Shown here: in pieces, positions 59,253-64,000 of the stretch
Layout: each line of letters begins with the position of its first letter
How positions within the stretch are numbered: position 1 is the stretch's first letter
NCBI RefSeq assembly: GCF_001658025.2
Contig: NZ_CP014007.2
Span: 1,736,001 to 1,800,000, forward strand
Direction of reading: 5' to 3'
Length of the DNA stretch: 64,000 nucleotides
Source: Kosakonia oryzae
GTDB lineage: Bacteria; Pseudomonadota; Gammaproteobacteria; Enterobacterales; Enterobacteriaceae
Notes under the pieces: generated by a model
The model's input: the letters and a program-made list of their open reading frames with translations, nothing else
Databases searched by the model: none
What the model was told of the DNA's origin: nothing
Translations under genes and position numbers: made by a program

Positions 59253-60200
59253 ATGCGTGTATTACTGGCGCCGATGGAAGGTGTGCTCGATTCGCTGGTG
59301 CGCGAGCTGCTGACCGAGGTTAACGATTACGATCTGTGCATTACCGAGTTTTTGCGCGTGGTCGATCAACTGCTGCCGGTAAAATCATTCCATAAAATCT
59401 GCCCGGAATTGCAGCGGCAAAGCCGTACCCCTTCCGGCACGCTGGTACGTGTTCAACTGCTGGGGCAATATCCGCAATGGCTGGCGGAAAATGCCGCACG
59501 GGCGGTGGAACTCGGTTCGTGGGGCGTCGATCTGAATTGCGGCTGTCCATCCAAACTGGTCAATGGCAGCGGCGGCGGCGCAACGTTACTGAAAGATCCT
59601 GAGCTGATTTATCGCGGCGCAAAAGCGATGCGCGAGGCAGTACCGTCGCATTTACCCGTGACTGTTAAAGTGCGTCTCGGCTGGGACAGCTCCGCCCGTC
59701 AGTTTGAGATTGCCGATGCGGTACAGCAGGCGGGCGCGACGGAACTGGCGGTACACGGGCGCACCAAAGAAGACGGTTATAAAGCAGAGTGTATTAACTG
59801 GCAGGCCATTGGCGAGATCCGGCAGCGGTTGTCGATCCCGGTGATTGCCAACGGCGAGATCTGGGACTGGCAAAGCGCCCAGGCGTGTATGACAGCTACT
59901 GGTTGCGATGCGGTGATGATCGGTCGCGGCGCGCTGAATGTGCCAAACCTGAGCCGGGTGGTGAAATACAATGAACCACGCATGCCGTGGCCTGATGTGG
60001 TGGCGCTGCTGGCGAAATATTCGCGGCTGGAAAAGCAGGGCGATACCGGTTTGTATCACGTGGCGCGTATTAAACAGTGGCTGGGTTATTTGCGTAAAGA
60101 ATATAACGAAGCCAGTAATTTATTTGCTGAAATTCGTACTTATAAAACATCGGAAGAGATAGCCGCGGCAATTTTGCGTGTTAAGCTGAATCCAGAATAA
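59253..60200 (+). CDS. dusC: tRNA-dihydrouridine(16) synthase DusC
   Basis: FMN enzyme that reduces U16 in the tRNA D-loop. The 315-residue protein is a TIM barrel with [10 protein letters not shown], the catalytic loop NCGCPSK (Cys98 acid), KVRLGWD, and phosphate-binding [10 protein letters not shown] / [12 protein letters not shown]-terminal helical tRNA-binding domain ends the protein. The ATG giving [11 protein letters not shown] is used, matching E. coli in length. An ATG 30 bases earlier in frame is possible but lacks family support. Last gene of the K-12-like block. Confidence 0.95.
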
Positions 60201-60318
60201 TGTAATAATTACGCCAGCACTCGATGGCTGCGTTAGCTGAATCACGTTTTTTATTTATTGATAAAATAGCCGCTGGATTATTTAAAACCAGAGTGTTATT
60301 TCTGTTCGCACAACGTCA

Positions 60319-60346
60319 GGATTGTTACTGTTATACAGGCAAAACC
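60319..60346 (+). promoter_or_regulatory. RAT1: BglG-type antiterminator site before the porin gene
   Basis: GGATTGTTACTG-TTATACAGGC-AAAACC follows the ribonucleic antiterminator pattern bound by BglG/LicT/SacY proteins (GGATTGTTACTGC...GGCAAAACC). Its 3' end overlaps the first arm of the terminator below, so binding would prevent termination. Confidence 0.88.
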
Positions 60347-60393
60347 TAAATTCACAGGGTTCGCTATAGCGAATTCCGGATTTAGGTTTTTTT
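60342..60393 (+). terminator. Terminator controlled by RAT1
   Basis: AAACCTAAAT...ATTTAGGTTT form the outer stem, with an inner hairpin TTCGC-TATA-GCGAA, followed by TTTT and TTTGTTTTT. Confidence 0.85.
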
Positions 60394-60521
60394 GTTTTTA
60401 TCTGGCGTGTTAATGGAACGACTAAGTTACTCTTTTAAATTAATCTATTCATTTGTCACCGATATCGACACCGGTTCGATAGCTATTCAGTGGTCAATAA
60501 TATAATAATGGAATACATATT

Positions 60522-61823
60522 ATGGCACTTTTAAAATTATCACTCCCTCTGGTTTTTATTTCCGCTTACGCCGCGCCCGTTAGCGCGACGCCTTTTCTTG
60601 CCGATAGCCAACTCGATCTCACGCTAAAAAACGTCTGGATGTTTAACACCGGCGATCAACTGGCGTTGCTCGGCGTGGGCGATCAGAGTGCCTGGGCGCA
60701 GGCGGCGCATCTGGATTATCAAAGCGGCTGGTATAGCGATCTGTTGGGCATTGACGCCTCCTGGTACAGCGTGGCGAAACTCTCGGCGAATGCCTCATTC
60801 GCCGGGCGCGACCTGCTGCGCGACAATCACGGCCATGCGGAAGGTTTCAATAAAGTCGGGCAGCTCTACGCAAAGCTTAAGTGGGGAGATGAAGCGGCGT
60901 ACGCGCGGCTATATGCGGGCTGGCGGCAGCTTTATAAATTTGGCGCACTGAACGTGACGCGCAGCCGCGCGGCGCCAAGTAGTTGGCAGGGTATCAGTAT
61001 AGAAAGCGGCTGGGGCGCGATTTCGGCGCGCGGCGCCTGGGTGACGCGTTTTTCGGAACGCGATGAGCCGGAAAAGCGCCGTTTTTACACCCTCGCCAGT
61101 AATAAGCCGATCGATCATATTGCGACAGGAGAAATCATCTGGAGCCCGTCGAAAAATACGCGAATAAGCTGGATGTCGGGCGAAAGTGATAATTACCTTT
61201 TACGCCATGGCGTAGAAGCACAATTTTCTATACCGGTTGCTGAACGGCAAAATCTCTTATTACGCGGCGCCTGGTATTACAATCGCGGGCTTGATAATTG
61301 GGAAGGTGCACGAGGTTTTAGCCATAGCGCCCGGCATCTTTTTACGCTGGTGGGTTATCAATATCATAATCTGGAATCAGGTATCGGCTGGTCAAAAACC
61401 AAAGCGTCTTTGAATAATGGCTTAGGGAGTTTTTACTGGCATCTGGGGAAAAATACCCGGGGCGCATTTAATAGTCCGGCAGACGGTGAAGGAAATGATT
61501 ATGTCAATGATGGCGAACAAATGCTTTATCTCTACGGTAAATATGCCTTCTCGCCGGAATTTACCGTCGGCCTGTACGGTAATTACGGTTACAACATCAA
61601 TTATCAAAATACCGCATTAACTGAATGGGAGTACGGCGGATATTTCGCCTGGACACCGAAACGCTTCGCAGGCTTTTCGCTGTTTGCCGGAATAGGTCCC
61701 AGCTACGGCTGGAAACTGAACAATGGAAAACCGTGGCTCACCGAAGATAAACGTACTTTTCATCGTGCGAAAGGCATCGGCGGCGCGGTTTCCTTGGAAT
61801 ACAAATTTGGTCTGCTTAATTAA
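60522..61823 (+). CDS. OprD-family outer-membrane porin
   Basis: A 433-residue exported barrel protein: signal peptide of about 22 residues (MALLKLSLPLVFISAYAAPV, cut near SAT-P), then strand-rich sequence ending with the aromatic C terminus EYKFGLLN. The N-terminal region resembles the OprD/ChiP porin family: FLADSQLDLTLKNVWMF, then GWYSDLLGIDASWYSVAKLS, then GFNKVGQLYAKLKWGDEAAYARLYAGW. Those are substrate-specific channels for small amino acids, chitosugars or aromatic compounds. Its position behind a RAT site at the head of a bgl-type operon implies uptake of a glycoside too large or too polar for general porins. It occupies the role that BglH (LamB type) has in the E. coli bgl operon. 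Substrate unknown. Confidence 0.8.
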   Translation: MALLKLSLPLVFISAYAAPVSATPFLADSQLDLTLKNVWMFNTGDQLALLGVGDQSAWAQAAHLDYQSGWYSDLLGIDASWYSVAKLSANASFAGRDLLRDNHGHAEGFNKVGQLYAKLKWGDEAAYARLYAGWRQLYKFGALNVTRSRAAPSSWQGISIESGWGAISARGAWVTRFSERDEPEKRRFYTLASNKPIDHIATGEIIWSPSKNTRISWMSGESDNYLLRHGVEAQFSIPVAERQNLLLRGAWYYNRGLDNWEGARGFSHSARHLFTLVGYQYHNLESGIGWSKTKASLNNGLGSFYWHLGKNTRGAFNSPADGEGNDYVNDGEQMLYLYGKYAFSPEFTVGLYGNYGYNINYQNTALTEWEYGGYFAWTPKRFAGFSLFAGIGPSYGWKLNNGKPWLTEDKRTFHRAKGIGGAVSLEYKFGLLN

Positions 61824-61837
61824 AAAGGAGTTTAGTC

Positions 61838-62710
61838 ATGAAAAAAGCAGTGATGGCGTTGTTGGTAACGGCACTGGCAGCGCCCGGTGTTCAGGCGGCG
61901 GAACGCGCCATGCGTATTTTGCTGGTCAATGATGATGGTTGTGATTCTGTGGGTACGCTTTCGCTACAGCAGAAGCTGGCGGAGAAAGGGTATGACGTCT
62001 GGATGGTGGCGCCGGCGAAGAATCAGAGTGGTATCGGTTCGGCGATCACCTTCAAACCGAACAAAATCTTCGACGTTAAAAAGGTGGCGGAGAAGCGTTA
62101 CTGCTTCCCCGGAACCCCGGCGGATGCCGTGGATTTTGGCCTGCTCGGCGTGCTGAAGCATAACCCGCCGGATCTGGTGATTTCTGGCGTCAACGACGGG
62201 CCGAATACCGGCGTTGCGCAGCTCAATTCCGGCACCGTCGGTGCCGCGGCGCGCGCGGTACGCTATGGCTACCCGGCCATAGCCGCCAGTATTGGCTATT
62301 TATTGACGGCTGAAGAGATGAAAGCGGGCTGGCCGAGCACGCATAAATACTGGCCGGACGCCGTTGATGATGTGGTGTCGCGGGTCGATAAACTCCACGC
62401 TAAATGGCAGCCTGGCAAGCCGCTGTTGCCCGCTGGCACCGGGGTGAGCATTAACTACCCGCCGCTGGCGAAAAGTGCCGTGAAAGGTGAAAAGTACATT
62501 GGCAATGAGCGTTTTCCTCTGCCGCAACACAGCTATGTGTTGCTTGAATACGGAGGGGCAAAGCAGGTAATGAGTGAGAAAGTGCTGACGCCGAGCGAAG
62601 CGGATACGGATACCGGCTGGTTAAATCGCGGCTACATCACGTTGACGGTTTTTGATGCTGAATGGAACGCGCCGCAGTACGAATCAGCGTATCAGGCGAT
62701 TTTCCGTTAA
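61838..62710 (+). CDS. SurE-family phosphatase with signal peptide (probably periplasmic)
   Basis: SurE proteins are metal-dependent nucleoside monophosphatases/polyphosphatases, normally cytosolic and 250 residues long. This 290-residue version starts with a Sec signal peptide (MKKAVMALLVTALAAPGVQA, likely cut after residue 20). The catalytic landmarks are in order: ILLVNDDG (metal ligands Asp32, Asp33), APAKNQSGIG (Ser64), GTPADAV, ISGVNDGPNTG (Asn119) and SGTVGAA. All the usual metal and phosphate contacts seem present, so activity is expected. It follows the porin gene by 14 bases with AAGGAG upstream, and lies before RAT2 and bglG. A SurE-type enzyme in a beta-glucoside operon is unusual. 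It could release phosphate from a phosphorylated or nucleotide-like substrate before uptake; that is inference. Confidence 0.85.
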   Translation: MKKAVMALLVTALAAPGVQAAERAMRILLVNDDGCDSVGTLSLQQKLAEKGYDVWMVAPAKNQSGIGSAITFKPNKIFDVKKVAEKRYCFPGTPADAVDFGLLGVLKHNPPDLVISGVNDGPNTGVAQLNSGTVGAAARAVRYGYPAIAASIGYLLTAEEMKAGWPSTHKYWPDAVDDVVSRVDKLHAKWQPGKPLLPAGTGVSINYPPLAKSAVKGEKYIGNERFPLPQHSYVLLEYGGAKQVMSEKVLTPSEADTDTGWLNRGYITLTVFDAEWNAPQYESAYQAIFR

Positions 62711-62742
62711 CGCATCGCGCGAGCAAGATCACAATTTTAATC

Positions 62743-62768
62743 TCCCGACGTGTTTTTCATCGTCGGGA
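62743..62768. repeat. Inverted repeat between surE-like gene and RAT2
   Basis: TCCCGACG-TGTTTTTCAT-CGTCGGGA: perfect 8-bp stem, 32 bases after the surE-like stop. It may end the porin-surE transcript or stabilise its 3' end, or be an operator for a bglG promoter. No T tract at the stem base. Confidence 0.5.
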
Positions 62769-62788
62769 AACTGGTAGAGTCGGCTCCT

Positions 62789-62812
62789 GGATTGTTACTG
62801 CTTAGGCAGGCG

Positions 62813-62817
<5 letters not shown>
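62789..62817 (+). promoter_or_regulatory. RAT2: antiterminator site before bglG
   Basis: GGATTGTTACTG-CTTAGGCAGGC-GAAACC matches the RAT pattern, with one A-to-G change in the AAAACC end relative to RAT1 and RAT3. It overlaps the following terminator stem. Confidence 0.9.

Positions 62818-64000
<1,183 letters not shown>

Follow-up and report, generated by a model that had tools for sequence, protein, structure and literature searches.

A probable exported SurE-family protein and an OprD-family porin in a bgl-type operon of Kosakonia oryzae

The bgl-type operon of Kosakonia oryzae specifies, ahead of its antiterminator, beta-glucoside transporter and 6-phospho-beta-glucosidase, an OprD-family outer-membrane porin and a SurE-family protein with an export leader, here called SurE2. 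(The window, that is, the whole stretch of 64,000 bases that was analysed, comprises bases 1,736,001-1,800,000 of a single-contig genome of 5,416,158 bases, NZ_CP014007.2, and the operon runs over its downstream edge.) The porin-surE2 pair almost certainly belongs to an operon controlled through ribonucleic antiterminator (RAT) sites, and SurE2 is probably exported to the periplasm. On balance we consider it probable that SurE2 is an inducible periplasmic phosphatase that converts phosphorylated glycosides to substrates of the phosphotransferase system (PTS). The layout, which recurs in related genera, suggests that such bacteria remove phosphate from sugar conjugates outside the cell before import.

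The porin-surE2 pair and its antitermination sites

A preliminary description of this DNA had placed the porin and surE genes 14 bases apart, behind a RAT/terminator and before bglG and bglF (Table 1), and open reading frames (ORFs) and pattern matches agree with that placement. It had also called the pair fused, but porin and SurE2 are encoded by two separate ORFs in one operon, and a gene fusion is ruled out. The remaining genes are those of a bgl operon proper, namely bglG, a beta-glucoside PTS IIABC gene and a 6-phospho-beta-glucosidase gene. The bglG product exceeds the cut-offs of the NCBIfam models BglG (383.3 vs 322 bits) and LicT (382.4 vs 300), as do the bglF product that of NF007335 (1031.7 vs 894 bits) and the glucosidase that of NF007356 (649.2 vs 623 bits). 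The locus also has the defining parts of a BglG/LicT regulon: an antiterminator with CAT_RBD and PRD domains, and RATs that overlap intrinsic terminators before the genes.

A RAT/terminator pattern matches three times in the entire genome, always in this operon, and its reversed control does not match at all (the pattern was derived from the three copies themselves, so that more degenerate sites would escape it). The three RAT hairpins share a common two-part shape, and the whole RAT-plus-terminator segments 1, 2 and 3 are more stable than every one of 200 shuffles (z -5.1, -4.7 and -4.1). A slightly looser form of the pattern matches in 19 of 24 chosen relatives, and reversed in none. With at most 2 mismatches in 23 positions allowed (30 base shuffles of each locus reach 5-8 at best), a RAT lies 118-298 bases before surE2, or before the porin-surE2 unit, in 24 of the 28 genomes of the family Enterobacteriaceae that encode SurE2, representing 16 genera. 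At ten loci surE2 is the first gene behind a RAT of the strict pattern. A promoter scan of the region yielded 5 sites vs 3.7 in shuffles, with none upstream of RAT1 on the + strand. The terminator rule of that scan yielded 4 vs 5.1 and did not pick up the three long RAT terminators, and positions 60200-64000 had no Rfam match at E values up to 1.

RATs are also found before other genes. At two further loci (L145 4029-6872 and L149 2926-7096) a RAT precedes genes for two proteins, one large and leader-bearing, the other secreted and esterase-like, the unit at L149 also including a BglF relative; by eye, both adjoin apparent phoU and pstB genes, and the unit is possibly the counterpart of bglH-yieL in the E. 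coli operon.

Features of SurE2 and the porin

SurE2 matches the SurE domain profile PF01975 with 142 bits (cut-off 22.1) over residues 27-219. The match begins at residue 27, so that about 25 residues lie N-terminal of the SurE domain, and residues ~1-21 make up the leader. Judged by eye, 31 of 33 aligned SurE2 rows have such a leader (basic residues, a hydrophobic segment and small side chains, ahead of the MRIL-type motif at which the SurE domain starts); the two leaderless rows are one frameshifted genome that is present twice. Mean pairwise identity among 28 SurE2 rows is 0.33 in the leader and 0.68 in the mature part. Residues D32, D33, S64 and N119, which we take to be the SurE active site, are kept in all 43 rows inspected (36 SurE2 and 7 other SurE). 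Conservation of the leader and of these residues bears out what the preliminary description had said of the signal peptide and of the catalytic Asp, Ser and Asn.

A further feature is confined to SurE2. Of 36 SurE2 rows, 34 have both Cys35 and Cys89, and neither cysteine occurs in any of the 7 other, leaderless SurE rows. Because the pair is conserved in SurE2 and absent from leaderless SurE, it is probably a periplasmic disulfide. In a tree of 35 rows a 100/100 branch separates 28 SurE2 from 7 other SurE rows. (The 28 were chosen from 20 of the 28 family genomes with SurE2, three named records and four genomes outside the family, and also served for the first table of cysteines and active-site residues; the residue counts, but not the tree, were later extended with the other 8 family genomes, making 36 SurE2 rows.) By sequence, the nearest solved structures are those of SurE (E 6.7e-20). 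The K. oryzae genome has a second, leaderless surE at 994,717 whose product is 31% identical to SurE2. Genome G228 has two copies of SurE2 (G and L numbers designate genomes and loci), the second of which (L048 8176-9042) lies behind the glucosidase gene, has lost both cysteines and sits on a long branch.

The porin has a leader-like N-terminus (by eye), and its sole Pfam match is to the OprD profile PF03573, with 49.1 bits (cut-off 25); it is accordingly not of the BglH/LamB type found in the E. coli bgl operon. Its identity to three named relatives is 96, 73 and 59%. OprD-type channels prefer anions. An OprB-family porin is encoded at the same dusC-bglG site at other loci (L041 7726-9069, L043 10029-11372, L160 and L161); at L041 and L043 it is an additional gene, with a RAT of its own, between surE2 and bglG.

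Distribution, linkage and related operons

At E 1e-3, 178 of 295 family genomes have a SurE homologue, and the close form SurE2 (61-100% identity) is found in 28 of the 295, in 20 genera, one genome having a second copy at 58%; among the matches listed, those that are not SurE2 are 34-43% identical and shorter. At E 1e-30, a search of 394 genomes at order level detects SurE2 in 4 genomes outside the family (53-61% identity) and a search of 398 genomes at phylum level only in the window's own genome. All SurE2 matches in plasmids are below 60% identity (159 records; best ~30%). Kosakonia sacchari SP1 is a close relative, with SurE2 97% and the remaining operon genes 96-99% identical.

A bglG, bglF or glycoside hydrolase family 1 (GH1) relative is encoded no more than 5 kb from surE2 in 24 of the 28 genomes (16 genera). 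The co-occurrence with bgl genes proposed in the preliminary description therefore extends far beyond one strain, and a one-strain accident has been dropped as an explanation. A BglF equivalog (thresholds up to E 1e-240; present in 92 of the 295 genomes) is found in 25 of the 28 SurE2 genomes vs 67 of the 267 others (Fisher p 2.5e-11, to be read as a guide only since the genomes are related). In the three SurE2 genomes without it (G148, G086, G028) a shorter or broken bglF relative adjoins surE2. Two main layouts recur. One is that of the window, porin-surE2-bglG-bglF-GH1; in the other, surE2-bglF-GH1 is accompanied by a divergent unit encoding a histidine phosphatase and a second porin. In G034 and G242, surE2 and the latter unit lie apart from bglG-bglF-GH1, and RATs precede both surE2 and bglF; this is a split regulon united by its RATs. 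In the draft genome G142, surE2, histidine phosphatase-porin2 and bglG-bglF-GH1 each lie on a contig of their own, and RATs accompany the last two.

The histidine phosphatase of the second layout is a leader-bearing protein of the histidine-phosphatase superfamily (PF00300) whose gene is paired with that of an OprD-family porin (porin2). Of 30 loci, 11 have a RAT of the strict pattern before this unit (5 of 10 and 6 of 20 in two locus sets). At 54% identity or above, the protein is found in 19 of the 295 genomes, 10 of which also have SurE2; G043, G078, G087 and G273 have a RAT before its gene and no SurE2. In G060, surE2, porin2 and the histidine-phosphatase gene all lie behind one RAT. Plasmid matches remain below 60% identity (42 records; best 47%, on an Enterobacter mori plasmid). 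The RHG motif and an RE...G.(F/Y)EG stretch are present in 25 of 25 rows (residues were checked for 25 of the 30 loci; L104, L110, L111, L112 and L113 were left out).

SurE2 is linked to a second sugar in G298, of another family, where the order is treR-treB-treC-surE2 (L157 8143-13459); this surE2 encodes a leader and overlaps the end of treC by 4 bases, and treR, treB and treC each score above their NCBIfam cut-offs. The presence of SurE2 in a trehalose PTS operon points to sugar phosphates as its likely substrates. This operon, the second secreted phosphatase-family protein behind RATs and the conserved cysteine pair are lines of support that go beyond the preliminary description.

Table 1. 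Features of the K. oryzae locus and of the second phosphatase-family protein (window positions unless a locus is named)
Feature	Position	Strand	Basis or remark
dusC/yohI, tRNA-dihydrouridine synthase	59253-60200	+	PF01207; upstream neighbour that marks the site, outside the system
RAT (antiterminator target) and intrinsic terminator 1	60319-60393	+	pattern match; precedes the porin-surE2 pair
OprD-family outer-membrane porin, 433 amino acids	60522-61823	+	ORF; Pfam OprD PF03573, E 5.7e-13
SurE2 (SurE family, export leader), 290 amino acids	61838-62710	+	PF01975, E 2.5e-41
RAT and terminator 2	62789-62853	+	pattern match; precedes bglG
bglG, BglG/LicT-type antiterminator	62869-63702	+	CAT_RBD and two PRD stretches
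RAT and terminator 3	63717-63784	+	pattern match; precedes bglF
bglF, beta-glucoside PTS IIABC (start only)	63830-64000	+	extends beyond the window, L003 5831-7687
GH1 6-phospho-beta-glucosidase gene	L003 7700-9094		outside the window, after bglF; NCBIfam NF007356
Histidine-phosphatase protein of relatives	L055 7407-8195; also L050, L053, L054, L057-L062, L094-L103		

The gene dusC adjoins the locus in many relatives too. Beyond the glucosidase gene (L003 9125-12089) lie a LysR gene, a gene for a metallo-beta-lactamase-fold protein with a leader-like N-terminus and an SDR gene. This trio stays with the operon in Kosakonia, and partly so in Cedecea and at some other loci; being conserved at only some loci, its members were dropped as parts of the system. 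In E. coli, 4257 of 5426 genomes match the operon query, none over 80% of its length, and in the ten matches listed the alignment is restricted to the RAT2-bglG part. Enterobacter sp. EA-1 (CP025776; L007, L064) has bglF, the glucosidase gene, dusC and surE2 broken into frames, at a completeness of 49%, which looks like sequencing error.

Proposed function, candidate substrates and relation to known systems

The bgl-type operons are textbook examples of antitermination, and the proposed mechanism builds on that. A usable glucoside reaching BglF would lead BglG to bind the RATs, allowing transcription into porin-surE2, bglG and bglF-glucosidase (a read-through step that we infer from the known mechanism of BglG and the three RATs). 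The OprD-type channel would let in a small, probably anionic, phosphorylated glycoside, and exported SurE2, probably stabilised by Cys35-Cys89, would take the phosphate off in the periplasm, as its family, leader and residues suggest. BglF would then import and re-phosphorylate the plain glycoside, and the cytosolic 6-phospho-beta-glucosidase would cleave the product. BglF phosphorylates its substrate on import and 6-phospho-beta-glucosidase splits the product; a phosphatase would therefore be sensible for a conjugate that arrives already phosphorylated. What the preliminary description had said of a periplasmic phosphatase is partly supported, by operon and RAT placement, the conserved leader, catalytic residues and bgl linkage, but nothing found favours its suggestion of a nucleotide-like substrate.

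A number of findings weigh against a phosphatase function tied to the bgl switch. The RAT hairpins taken alone are ordinary in stability (z -0.7, -1.2 and -0.9; 21-48 of 200 shuffles fold equally well), and the promoter scan places no sigma-70-like site between position 60190 and RAT1. No RAT precedes the unit at L051 and L052 (their best sites, at 10 and 8 mismatches, do not outdo shuffled sequence) or at L063 and L056, the last judged on 97 bases before a contig end. No bgl gene lies within 5 kb of surE2 in 4 of the 28 genomes (G034, G142, G242 and G219; a contig end cuts the G142 copy). In G219, and in three of the four relatives outside the family (G405, G500 and G453), surE2 has neither a RAT nor bgl genes beside it. 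The cysteine pair has its exceptions, frameshifted G028 having Cys35 alone and the second G228 copy neither. In 21 of 25 rows of the histidine phosphatase a Ser stands in place of the second catalytic His (retained in G060), which leaves the activity uncertain; judged by these residues the protein may be inactive or altered. AlphaFold models of SurE2 and the porin, each from four input sequences, are poor (pLDDT 51.6 and 26.7).

The copies of surE2 without bgl genes in G405, G500, G453 and G219 favour a different function, as does the family name: SurE is a cytosolic 5'/3'-nucleotidase, and SurE2 passes the NCBIfam model of that name, TIGR00087, narrowly (138.9 vs 135.1 bits), falling below the cut-offs of the remaining 12 SurE models listed by the search. 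SurE2 might then be a periplasmic nucleotidase that salvages nucleosides or phosphate, sharing an operon with bgl genes through usefulness in the same niche. We think this unlikely: it is beta-glucoside RATs, and not phosphate or purine control, that stand directly before surE2, even where bglF and bglG are unlinked, and the trehalose PTS operon provides a second link to sugars. A single chemistry would cover the bgl and tre contexts alike if SurE2 recovered PTS-derived phospho-sugars of the cell itself or its neighbours (6-phospho-glucosides, or trehalose-6-phosphate after lysis) for re-uptake. This is less likely still; no sizeable extracellular pool of such compounds came up in a limited literature search.

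The pair could also be a mere passenger at the bgl site, kept there by linkage and having no part in glucoside use. Weighing against glucoside function is G072, of the same genus, whose bglG, bglF and GH1 products are 94-98% identical and which has three RATs but neither porin nor surE2 between dusC and bglG; an OprB-like porin replaces the pair at that site in G001 and G153. Since the pair is absent or swapped while bglGF-GH1 persist, it is an accessory extension of the operon and not its core. A passenger is nevertheless improbable, more so than either of the other alternatives, since linkage to bgl genes spans 16 genera, the operon comes in two layouts, and RATs still precede surE2 where the regulon is split.

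If SurE2 is the phosphatase that we propose, its placement behind a bgl switch, as a probably exported protein, in 24 of 28 genomes and 16 genera suggests that part of the natural diet of these bacteria is phosphorylated. The natural substrates of many bgl-type operons are, to our knowledge, unsettled. Candidates would be the phosphorylated beta-glucosides made by insects and nematodes, some of which occur in whitefly honeydew. According to the available part of one report, honeydew contains linamarin phosphorylated at position 3 of the beta-linked sugar and resistant to the plant's activating enzyme, and phosphorylated phenolic glycosides are mentioned for the gypsy moth (PMC8225905). From Caenorhabditis elegans, excerpts of two papers describe glucosides of indole and other compounds, detected mainly in phosphorylated form and more abundantly in the animals than in the medium (PMC7641594), and phosphoglucoside conjugates of foreign compounds (PMC12288073). 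The portions of these three sources at hand do not link phospho-glucosides to bacteria with this operon, and no bacterial consumer of phospho-beta-glucosides was found in the literature, which was searched only indirectly. These conjugates are a tentative proposal for the substrate. Equally tentative is the broader notion of an enterobacterial inducible phospho-beta-glucoside salvage system, in which an anion-admitting porin, one or more exported phosphatases and a PTS would share one antiterminator. Insects and nematodes tie up plant and bacterial toxins as phospho-glucoside conjugates, and such a salvage route would reverse this conjugation; the bacterium would gain the sugar, and the aglycone (e.g., cyanogenic or phenolic) would be freed.

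The individual parts have familiar counterparts. The SurE domain and active-site residues are common to SurE2 and leaderless 5'/3'-nucleotidase SurE; SurE2 differs in its leader, cysteine pair, separate 100/100 branch and PTS operon context. The SurE family, usually viewed as one of cytosolic nucleotidases, would thereby gain an exported branch with a likely role in sugar use. The periplasmic glucose-1-phosphatase Agp of E. coli follows the logic proposed here, in that a sugar-phosphate is dephosphorylated outside and the sugar imported, but Agp is presumably of an unrelated enzyme family, encoded outside PTS operons and otherwise controlled. Like UidC and other enterobacterial porins, the operon porin is of the OprD family, but it scores far below the cut-off of the UidC glucuronide-porin equivalog (35.8 vs 510 bits). 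The E. coli bgl operon has in common with the present one its control by BglG and RATs, BglF, phospho-beta-glucosidase and an added porin; that porin, BglH, is of another family (LamB-type), and no phosphatase is known there. Close as well are the bgl operons beside yohI/dusC in Klebsiella and Enterobacter, which, as far as the accessible text goes, share the neighbouring gene, the bglG-bglF-glucosidase order and antitermination terminators (PMC2646131). The main text of that paper contains the words SurE and phosphatase 0 times, and the main text of a Proteus paper, as far as available, has no SurE. The preliminary description had known of no such system, and no literature description of a porin-phosphatase module in a bgl operon was found (judged mostly by titles and abstract openings), but the core operon of this site has been published.

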